Positions 1 to 16,048 of a DNA stretch of 47,623 bases are shown here, piece by piece; the stretch's first letter is position 1; each line of letters starts with the position of its first letter. The notes under the pieces are model-generated. The model did not search any database. It worked only from the letters and a program-made list of their open reading frames with translations, and had not been told where the DNA came from. Both the position numbers and the translations under genes were made by a program. The DNA lies in assembly GCA_002719335.1 (NCBI GenBank), contig PBHE01000005.1:12330-59952 (forward strand), given 5' to 3'. The stretch is from Acidimicrobiaceae bacterium (lineage in GTDB: Bacteria > Actinomycetota > Acidimicrobiia > Acidimicrobiales > Poriferisodalaceae).

Positions 1-1269
1 GTACTTGACGAACTAGTAGAACGCCACACTTCATGGTGGGCGGCCGAAGATTGGATGACTCAGTTCGGCCCGGACCCTGAGCGCAGTAACTATCCCGACA
101 AATATCGGCCGCTGATTCCTGAAGCCCTGTGGGGTAACTATGACGTGCCTGGGTGGACCGCTAACGGAATCGAACCCTACGGGGTTCAAATGGATCCCGT
201 AGCGGCAGATGGAATGCTCTTCTTCAAAGGCTTCTTCGGCTTACTTCTAGGTCTGCACCGCTATGTATCAAATGATCCCAAGTGGAACAGCCCCTTTGAA
301 ATGATTCGCGACGGCGAACACACTTTTACCTGGACTCACTCTGGCGTAATGAGCCATCTCGCTGAGCAATGGCACGGGCGTCAAATGGGTTGCCATTGCG
401 AAAACACAAAAATATGGCCCTACTGACTGGCTGGTGCCGGTCTCGGTCTGAGACTTCACGATCAACTTCTCGACACAAACCACCATGGTGCTTTTGATCA
501 CTGGTGGGGGTACGCGGCAGACAACTACATAACTTGGGACGGAGACCAAGCGGTCGCCATGGACCTTTACTATGACCCCGTCGTCGATGAACATGTCCGA
601 ACTCCGGTCGGATTAATCGCGCCGACTTGGTACCTCGCCCCTCAACGCAGAGAGGTGGCTGAAACAGCGTGGAGGTTTGGCGCCTCGGTAATGGGTCTAT
701 TGGGGGATGGAGATGTCGGCATGAATGATGCTCGCGATGGTCTCATGTTGGCCTGGTTTACCGGCGAGTTTGCTGACGGAGCCATCAAAGAGAAGCTGTG
801 GGAAGCCTGCGACACTTTCTTCGAACCCACGCAGGATCCAGACTCCGGCGAGTTCACCTTTGGTTTCGGCCTCGGTGAGATTCACCCTCGGGGACAATTT
901 AATGCCCGGGTCATGGCCGGCTGGGTCTGCCAGCCCGGAGCGTGGGCCCAAATATTCGACAATCCGAATCTGGCAAAGCATTCCCAGCCTTGCGTGGAAA
1001 GAGTCGACTTTCCGCGAGTCGCAATGAGTCAAGCCCACTGGAACGAAGGGTCGCTGCATCTAGCGGCTGACCCATGCAACGGCGCAGCGAATGGCACTCG
1101 GACAACGATGACTATCCGCCGTCTACCCACTGATGGTGAATGGATTCTTAAAAGTAGCGATGAAACATTGACTTCCTGGGACGTCGCGGGAGGTTCAACA
1201 CAGATCGAGTTGATCGCTGACGGGTCGTCCTTCACATTGACCGCTTTAGATGAAACAGTAAGCGCATGA
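1..1269 (+). CDS. Linalool dehydratase/isomerase-like protein with in-frame UGA (candidate selenoprotein), 5' partial
   Basis: The frame is open from base 1, so the N-terminus lies outside the window. It runs 141 codons, meets a single TGA at 424-426, then continues 280 sense codons in the same frame to a TGA at 1267-1269. Residues before the TGA read CHCENTKIWPY and after it LAGAGLGLRLHDQL, a seamless continuation. This resembles the (alpha/alpha)6-barrel Ldi family, whose Castellaniella member converts myrcene, linalool and geraniol; I recall catalytic Cys171 and Cys180 there. Here the Cys of CEN and the TGA codon are also nine codons apart, so the TGA replaces the second catalytic Cys. A SECIS-like hairpin follows at 434-459. 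The gene overlaps the next by ATGA, which argues against decay. TGA ends other genes here, so the codon is not generally reassigned. Alternatives: nonsense mutation (TGC/TGT to TGA) or sequencing error. Family call from recalled motifs, moderate certainty; substrate unknown. Confidence 0.72.
434..459 (+). promoter_or_regulatory. SECIS-like hairpin just downstream of in-frame UGA
   Basis: GTCTC (440-444) pairs perfectly with GAGAC (450-454) around a five-base loop GGTCT (445-449). A G-T pair (439/455) extends it, and after a small internal loop GTG (434-436) pairs with CAC (457-459). The loop GGT starts 19 nt after the TGA at 424-426. Bacterial SECIS elements sit inside the coding region directly after UGA and present a GGU-type apical loop to SelB. 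The E. coli fdhF element, as I recall it, has the same GGUCU loop at the same distance. The element is also translated, encoding the GLGLRLHD stretch. Confidence 0.7.
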
Positions 1270-2240
1270 ATTCCGCCGTTGAAACTGCTACTGGACCCGT
1301 TTCGGCATCAGAGCTGGGTCGAGTACTGATGCATGAACATGTTTTCGTCATATCTACTGAAATCCAGCAGAACTACCCCCAGGAGTGGGGAGAAGACCAA
1401 CTTCGGATTGATGACGCCGTCGACCGGCTCACCGAACTAAAGGCAAACGGCATCGACACCATCGTCGACCCAACAGCGATTGGACTCGGTCGCTACATCC
1501 CACGGATTCAAGCTGTTGCAGCCAGAATCGATCTCAAGATCATCTGTGCCACGGGCCTTTACACATTTAACGAACTTCCCCACTATTACCGACGACGCAC
1601 CGCCAGCAAGACTGATGCCCTCACGACCCATTTTGTTCAAGACATTGTTAACGGCTTCGCCGATACCGGAGTCAAGGCTGGCGTCATAAAGTGCGCGACC
1701 GACAAGCCGGGTCTGACGCCTGACGTTGAGCGGGTGCTTCGCGCATGCGCGCAAGCTCATCGAGAAACCGGTTGCCCCATAACTACCCACACGAACGCCG
1801 AGCGAGAGCGGGGGCTTGATCAACAACAAATCTTTGCCGAAGAAGGCGTCGATTTGACTCGGGTAGTGATCGGACACTGCGGAGACTCTCAAGATCTCGA
1901 TTACCTACAAAAGCTCCTTGACGCTGGAAGCATCCTTGGCATGGATCGATTTGGCATCGACGGCTACCTCACGACAGAACAACGAGTCGATGTCGTTGCT
2001 GAACTTTGCCGACGAGGCCACGCCGATCAACTGGTATTAAGCCACGACGCTTCCTGCTACATCGATTGGATCGAGGGTGAGGTACCGCTCGCTCCTCTGC
2101 CGAACTGGCACTACCTACACATCAGCAAAGACGTCATACCCGCCCTTCTCGCTGCCGGTGTGGCGGAGTCGCAGATTGAGACCATGTTGGTGGACACGCC
2201 GCGAAGGTTTCTGCAATCACAGAATCTTGGCGGGTACTAG
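1266..2240 (+). CDS. Phosphotriesterase-family metal-dependent hydrolase
   Basis: 324 aa, an amidohydrolase-superfamily TIM barrel of the phosphotriesterase/lactonase type. The binuclear metal ligands are all visible: H23 and H25 in MHEHVF, K142 (carboxylated lysine position) in VIKCATD, H175 in THTNAE, H204 in IGHCGD and D261 in SHDA. Such enzymes hydrolyse lactones, phosphotriesters or related esters in the cytosol; substrate cannot be read from sequence. The start ATG lies inside the ATGA overlap with the Ldi-like gene, so translation is coupled and the two probably act in one pathway. The stop is 10 bases before the thioesterase start. Confidence 0.85.
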   Translation: MNSAVETATGPVSASELGRVLMHEHVFVISTEIQQNYPQEWGEDQLRIDDAVDRLTELKANGIDTIVDPTAIGLGRYIPRIQAVAARIDLKIICATGLYTFNELPHYYRRRTASKTDALTTHFVQDIVNGFADTGVKAGVIKCATDKPGLTPDVERVLRACAQAHRETGCPITTHTNAERERGLDQQQIFAEEGVDLTRVVIGHCGDSQDLDYLQKLLDAGSILGMDRFGIDGYLTTEQRVDVVAELCRRGHADQLVLSHDASCYIDWIEGEVPLAPLPNWHYLHISKDVIPALLAAGVAESQIETMLVDTPRRFLQSQNLGGY

Positions 2241-2250
2241 CCTCGCAAAC

Positions 2251-2598
2251 ATGAGCGAACTACAAGTCGGCCTCCTTTTTAGTGACACAGTCGAAGTAAC
2301 GGACGAGATGTCGCCACCGCATCTGCCGACCAAGGTTTTGTCCACTCCGGACATGGTCGGCCTTATTGAGGGCACGTGTTTGTTTGGCGTCCAACCCCAT
2401 CTTGACGAAGGACGAACCACGGTAGGCATTCATGTGTGCGTAAGCCACGAAGCTGCCGCTGCTTCAGGAGAAAGTGTCACAATCGATGCTGAACTAGCAG
2501 AAATCGACCGTAAACGGCTCGTATTCAATGTGAAGGTCAGCCATGGGGACACCTTGGTGTCCCAAGGAACACATCAGCGCTTTATCGTCGGTGGATAA
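2251..2598 (+). CDS. FlK-like hot-dog thioesterase
   Basis: 115 aa from ATG 2251; the frame is open further upstream but inside the previous gene. The hot-dog thioesterase pattern resembles fluoroacetyl-CoA thioesterase FlK: STPDMVGLIEGTC carries the Thr/Ser and Glu positions, and GRTTVGIHVCVSHEAA carries the conserved GxTxVG strand and the catalytic-type His. Expected role: cleavage of a short acyl-CoA or protection from a toxic one. It is the third gene of the Ldi-like operon. A TAGCCT 7 nt before the ATG could also give a leaderless transcript. Specificity for a fluorinated acyl group is not implied. Confidence 0.75.
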   Translation: MSELQVGLLFSDTVEVTDEMSPPHLPTKVLSTPDMVGLIEGTCLFGVQPHLDEGRTTVGIHVCVSHEAAAASGESVTIDAELAEIDRKRLVFNVKVSHGDTLVSQGTHQRFIVGG

Positions 2599-15536: not shown

Positions 15537-15983
15537 TTAGGGTCGTTGGGTTTCGATCGCATCGATCAGTCGCCGGCCGTTTTTCAGCGACCATGTGATT
15601 GGGCCGTGCTTGGTGTCAGCGGTCACCAAGTCAGAAGAACCACTGCGCGTGATTTTCAGATTGATGACCGCGGCCAGCGGGAGTCGACCCTCCCACATTT
15701 GCGACTTTGATGTCCGGTATACCGCTTCATCCGTGACTTCCAAACTGACTAGCCGCGTGGCTCCCGCCTCATCGGTCTCGGTTACTCGCTGAAATCTCAA
15801 CACGGCTTCAGTGTGCCAGAGCAAGTAACCCGCGTCACTCCAATTCCAACACTGTCGAAGAGCTCTCAAGCGGGTCTCGATTTCGGTAATTGACTTGCGT
15901 GCCGAACTCAAACATGTTGGAATCGGTGCGTTATCAAGAGCGGTGCACTTCTGTGCACCCAGCAACCTGGGGTGGACACCCAA
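15537..15983 (-). CDS. Hypothetical protein
   Basis: 148 aa if started at TTG 15983; no ATG or strong ribosome-binding site marks the true start, and downstream starts are possible. The C-terminal half is a beta-rich pattern (LRFQRVTETDEAGATRLVSLEV, LPLAAVINLKIT, GPITWSLKNGRRLIDAI) resembling a small PH-like or bacterial domain. No family recognised. It is transcribed divergently from the sulfhydrylase gene. Confidence 0.5.
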   Translation of the reverse strand: MGVHPRLLGAQKCTALDNAPIPTCLSSARKSITEIETRLRALRQCWNWSDAGYLLWHTEAVLRFQRVTETDEAGATRLVSLEVTDEAVYRTSKSQMWEGRLPLAAVINLKITRSGSSDLVTADTKHGPITWSLKNGRRLIDAIETQRP

Positions 15984-16048
15984 GGTGCTTGCCTACCTTG
16001 TGTAGGGATATGGCTGAGGTTTAGCGACCGACGCAATGAAGTGTCCTA

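Follow-up and report, generated by a model that had tools for sequence, protein, structure and literature searches.

The first gene of this locus raises the question of whether a TGA triplet within its reading frame ends translation or encodes selenocysteine (Sec) and, if the latter, what such a residue would do in a relative of linalool dehydratase/isomerase (Ldi). We addressed this in the window, i.e., the whole 47,623-nucleotide stretch of DNA that was analysed. Its 5' edge cuts the gene, ~79 codons of which lie upstream on the contig, and the portion within the window (positions 1-1269, forward strand) encodes a protein of the Ldi family (PF18566) from which the N-terminus is missing, ~420 C-terminal residues being left. 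The features of this gene are:

1-1269, forward strand: Ldi-family selenoprotein gene, assigned on PF18566, a profile match to the PDB, an AlphaFold model with its fold match, and dN/dS
397-399, forward strand: TGC codon for the Cys at the position of Ldi Cys171, replaced by TGA in 23 homologues, from profile alignments and reading of the loci
424-426, forward strand: in-frame UGA assigned as selenocysteine, equivalent to Ldi Cys180, from the TGA and Cys counts across loci and the alignment register
439-455, forward strand: bacterial SECIS hairpin (stem 439-444/450-455, apical loop GGTCT at 445-449), from covariation, codon bias, a synonymous null and likeness to fdhF

Translated from base 1 with the TGA at 424-426 read through, the frame remains open to a second TGA at 1267-1269. 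The resulting protein matched the Pfam profile PF18566 with an E-value of 3.8e-7 and 30.4 bits, above the curated cut-off of 26.1, as did all 44 homologues scanned (44/44, E<=0.001). NCBIfam holds no model. Under translation table 11 the frame formally ends at the first TGA, as it would if this triplet were a genuine stop, a mutation in a pseudogene or an error of sequencing. However, purifying selection was evident both before and after the UGA, with dN/dS well below 1 in either part, and 72 loci carry TGA at this same column together with a conserved SECIS. On these grounds the stop, pseudogene or error reading, to which we grant hardly any probability, was rejected.

The recurrence of the triplet became evident in a first survey of 61 genomes, namely the window's own and 60 relatives. 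An Ldi homologue was matched in 18 of them. In 17 of these it contains either a single in-frame TGA or two; in the eighteenth it is a fragment that stops short of the TGA column. The single-TGA pattern reads GCHCENTKIWPYULAGAG and the double one GCHUENTKIWPFULAGAG, with the two TGAs nine codons apart. A wider scan, restricted to one genome per species, yielded 79 named loci that, together with the window, made 80 loci read at both columns: 49 were Cys/Sec, 23 Sec/Sec and 8 Cys/Cys, and the Sec/Cys state was found in none of the 80. TGA at the second column thus occurs in 72/80 loci from four bacterial phyla, the TGA-bearing loci belonging to Acidimicrobiia, Gamma- and Alphaproteobacteria, Myxococcota (Myxococcales) and Candidatus Entotheonella; the Cys/Cys form is also present in the Chloroflexota isolate Ktedonospora. 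Except for L109 and L125, which have an upstream frame break in the contig, the homologue frames contained no other in-frame TGA. A quick tree built with both columns masked placed at least two state changes at the second column and at least three at the first. Across the loci read, Cys/Sec interchange is seen at both catalytic columns. The criterion for a bacterial selenoprotein, an in-frame UGA at a column where homologues carry Cys, is met (72 Sec, 8 Cys, n=80).

Separately, the metagenome-assembled genome (MAG) of a Candidatus Microthrix contains a second, Cys/Cys copy (L028 / L120) on a 3633-base contig. Since this copy is nearly identical to those of the gammaproteobacterial MAGs L122 and L127, the short contig may have been assigned to the wrong bin or acquired by recent transfer.

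That the frame stays open once TGA is translated would also be expected if UGA had been reassigned to a standard amino acid, e.g., Trp or Gly. Yet in many of these loci TGA is also the terminal stop of this gene, the next gene downstream closes in its own frame as expected, the column holds Cys in the Cys forms and never Trp or Gly, and a SECIS is present. Code reassignment, the least credible of all the readings considered, was ruled out by the terminal TGAs, the Cys forms and this hairpin.

All Sec loci carry the SECIS hairpin, with its loop 18 nt after the UGA; the loop is GGUCU, or GGUAU in one locus. The consensus GG[CT]CTC-GGTCT-GAG[AG]C holds in nearly all Sec loci, and the variants (L098, L109, L129 and two further loci with T replacing the last C) all remain paired. 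Across 65 distinct sequences the six stem pairs are unbroken, with one covarying pair (CG in 46, UA in 15, UG in 3 and GC in 1); pairing was lost when the partner strand was slid, and RNAalifold recovered the identical helix unaided. Codon usage points in the same direction. The Arg in the 3' arm is encoded by AGA or AGG in 70/70 loci having Arg there, as compared with 8.5% in the same genes, and the loop Gly by GGT in 72/72 against a background of 19%; the AGR Arg codons, rare in these genes, are therefore taken as forced by the hairpin. Under a synonymous null, in which codons were sampled from each gene's own usage, the hairpin has a probability of 0.0046 per locus (about 0.5%), whereas it was present in 71/71 Sec loci tested and in 0/8 Cys loci. 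We give no joint probability, because shared descent makes the loci non-independent.

The published model of a bacterial SECIS specifies a 3-9 nt loop with G in the first two positions, a 4-16 bp stem, a distance of 16-37 nt from the UGA and an energy limit of -7.5 kcal/mol (PMC13188914). The window hairpin meets this model in loop, stem and spacing, but its core, at -7.1 kcal/mol, narrowly misses the energy limit, which the other three hairpins tested satisfied (-9.2 to -10.3 kcal/mol in relatives). The isolated 51-nt stretch prefers a different fold. On both strands of the whole window, no other UGA combined 60 open codons on each side with a GGTCT-type hairpin.

We further inspected the genomes for the Sec machinery. 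The window genome encodes adjacent selA and selB, and its selD (contig C12, 40386-41327, minus strand; L032 / L035) has a TGA of its own, in frame, within the motif GAGUACK; this gene therefore encodes a Sec-containing selenophosphate synthetase, i.e., a second selenoprotein in this genome. A search for tRNA-Sec in the same genome, which is 81.6% complete, returned only other tRNAs below the cut-off. In 5/5 congeners a tRNA-Sec with anticodon TCA was found, in three of them ~18 kb from selB; the selAB contig of the window genome ends short of that distance. Among the relatives, SelB scored above the cut-off in 17/17 genomes with a TGA-bearing Ldi gene, and such a gene was absent from all 13 relatives without SelB. 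In other phyla and clades, where most genomes are drafts, SelB was detected in 14/16 Sec-type and 3/7 Cys-type genomes and was not found in two of those 16 Sec-type drafts. The host therefore fulfils the requirement for a Sec machinery with selA, selB and a Sec-type selD of its own, the tRNA-Sec being found only in congeners. Collectively, these data indicate that the UGA almost certainly encodes Sec, an assignment made in the absence of selenium or protein data. An earlier note on this DNA had argued that the position itself favours Sec over random nonsense, and Sec is further supported by the covarying SECIS, the Cys/Sec interchange and the Sec machinery. As we envisage it, SelB and tRNA-Sec would read the UGA at 424-426 as selenocysteine under the direction of the hairpin at 439-455.

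In the clade with UGAs at both catalytic columns, nine codons apart (23 loci, including L086-L088, L090, L093 and L094), a hairpin overlaps the second UGA and places its loop 20 nt after the first. It is complete in 23/23 double-Sec loci, with 24% expected per locus as background and an occurrence of 2/9 in comparable single-Sec loci. However, the first base of its loop is variable, and z-scores for general folding did not separate the groups. This hairpin is thus only a candidate for decoding of the first UGA.

Where the Sec would lie in the enzyme was inferred by comparison with Ldi. Searched as a single sequence with phmmer, the window protein had no real match in the PDB, and a profile of homologues was therefore needed. 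A 16-homologue profile retrieved Castellaniella Ldi as the only confident PDB match (E 1.5e-4), with hCENtkiwPyC aligned on vCEPdnyfvQC, i.e., Cys on Cys at both columns. The same register was obtained against the canonical Cys-type Ldi of Actinomycetota, with an hhalign profile-profile probability of 99.6. The nine-residue spacing of the two catalytic Cys is hence met in the window family, with Sec replacing Cys at the second or at both columns. In the printed profile alignment, in which Ldi MYKGH faces (L/F)(F/Y)KGF, the column of Ldi His129 is Phe. The titles of PDB entries name the variants C171A and C180A, which gives the numbering of the catalytic pair in Castellaniella Ldi; in PMC6600392 the pair is numbered 170 and 179. 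Both Cys are essential, since their serine exchanges fold but are inactive (PMC6600392). Acid/base or covalent catalytic roles have been proposed for these residues, which are reported as reduced (PMC6600392).

For the fold, we modelled the full-length protein of the congener L053, 92% identical to the window protein, with Sec entered as Cys. The AlphaFold model reached a mean pLDDT of 91.6 and displays the (alpha/alpha)6-barrel of Ldi, to which it aligned with a Z-score of 32.8 (2.7 A over 323 residues, about 15% identity), the next family scoring 17.8. Distances could not be read in the model, and the putative active-site placement therefore rests on the profile alignments. We hold the Ldi fold and the placement at the catalytic column with very high confidence. 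These results bear out what the earlier note had proposed, that the Cys codon of the CEN motif (397-399) and the TGA (424-426) lie nine codons apart, that they match Cys171 and Cys180 of Castellaniella Ldi, both catalytic, and that the UGA falls on the second of them: both columns coincide in the profile alignments, and the PDB titles and the serine exchanges agree with that pair. Neither outcome that would have refuted this proposal was encountered. The family residue at the TGA column is Cys in Castellaniella Ldi, in the canonical Actinomycetota Ldi and in the eight Cys forms of the subfamily, and, as far as alignment can tell, the TGA does not fall outside the active site, as its column is that of a Cys on which catalysis by Ldi depends. 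Sec would accordingly take the place of Cys180 with Cys171 retained, and in the sister clade both catalytic positions would be Sec. Taken jointly and leaving chemistry aside, Sec encoding and an Ldi fold with the UGA at the catalytic column have, in our estimate, a probability of about 0.93.

We then considered the gene surroundings, in which two genes follow that of the Ldi homologue:

1266-2240, forward strand: phosphotriesterase-family hydrolase (PF02126), whose start overlaps the Ldi stop; conserved in close relatives
2251-2598, forward strand: FlK-like thioesterase (PF22636); conserved in close relatives

Both likely belong to the same operon as the Ldi homologue. Upstream, the congener L053 has a 3-hydroxyisobutyrate-dehydrogenase-like gene and then an acyl-CoA-dehydrogenase-like gene, the latter overlapping the start of the Ldi homologue. 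These neighbours in close relatives suggest an operon for small-molecule catabolism, a function that is only predicted and whose substrate is unidentified. Beyond the close clade the neighbourhood is not conserved and offered no clue to the substrate. The FlK-like gene, of the fluoroacetyl-CoA thioesterase family, adjoins the Sec gene, and its true substrate could hint at the pathway. Another clade with a single Sec has a different neighbour from that of the window, namely an arginine-deiminase/dimethylargininase-like gene immediately preceding the Ldi homologue (L061:6700-7974, L073:7063-7974). Elsewhere in the window, a SAM-I/IV riboswitch (15926-16041, forward strand; 43.4 bits, above the cut-off) lies just ahead of an ORF whose start is at 16036.

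The chemistry is much less certain. Non-redox chemistry of the Ldi type, inferred by analogy with Ldi and on a substrate that remains unknown, is in our view roughly an even call. Its more specific form, a cofactor-free hydratase/isomerase-type enzyme in which a selenol (a selenol pair in one clade) serves as acid/base catalyst on a small organic substrate, is proposed only tentatively and falls somewhat short of even odds. The selenol or selenolate might then act as acid/base, or as nucleophile, like the thiols proposed in Ldi, and the reaction would be the addition or removal of water or a double-bond shift. The main rival is that the Ldi scaffold hosts a Cys/Sec or Sec/Sec pair that does redox chemistry by forming a selenylsulfide or diselenide. 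Redox enzymes make up the majority of characterised selenoproteins (PMC13188914), the two positions occur as a pair, with both being Sec in one clade, and Ldi His129 is not kept; nonetheless, we deem this option unlikely, as the fold and closest relatives are those of Ldi, with reduced Cys and acid/base or covalent catalysis (PMC6600392), and neither the gene nor its neighbourhood showed anything thioredoxin-like or any peroxidase. Alternatively, kinship with Ldi could be confined to the fold, with Sec as covalent nucleophile or metal ligand in another reaction, e.g., hydrolytic or of the lyase type. The low identity to Ldi, the hydrolases among the neighbours and the appearance of GH127 enzymes, which use a Cys nucleophile, as weak fold matches of the model would fit this proposal, but the exact register of both Ldi catalytic columns and a structure match to Ldi far above all other folds render it improbable.

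A May 2026 review lists 119 prokaryotic selenoprotein families and subfamilies, Ldi not among them (PMC13188914). The full-text literature, searched in open-licence papers only, returned nothing relevant on an Ldi with selenocysteine; unpublished, subscription or preprint reports are possible. In our judgement, a known enzyme family is met here in a new form that contains selenium, and the current catalogue thereby gains a widespread family of selenoproteins that it lacked. We predict that automatic annotation splits or truncates these genes at the UGA. If the non-redox reading holds, Sec would be moving protons rather than electrons, which raises the questions of what benefit selenium brings where Cys is thought to do the former and why one clade replaced both catalytic Cys. 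Solved structures and active-site Cys mutants of the Cys homologue make the matter testable.

Among known systems, Castellaniella defragrans Ldi (PDB 5g1u, 5hlr, 5i3t) shares with the window family the Pfam family PF18566, the (alpha/alpha)6 fold and the register of the catalytic Cys. The window family differs in having Sec at the second column, or at both in one clade, an extra beta-rich C-terminal part, no apparent N-terminal export signal or disulfide, and Phe in place of His129. Because of this last substitution we do not call the window protein a linalool dehydratase, and the reaction may differ from that of Ldi given the same change and the missing export signal and disulfide. The Cys-type Ldi of other Actinomycetota (L162-L168) likewise have two Cys nine residues apart, in CEPxxxxxxCN, but they carry Cys only, without an in-frame TGA, and a long N-terminal part ahead of the Ldi domain. 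As for decoding, fdhF of Escherichia coli presents a GGUCU loop 18 nt after its UGA, as in the window family, although its stem has a bulge whereas the 5-nt loop of the window SECIS is closed by C-G; FdhF itself is a molybdopterin redox enzyme, and the window protein, which is not, belongs to a different family.
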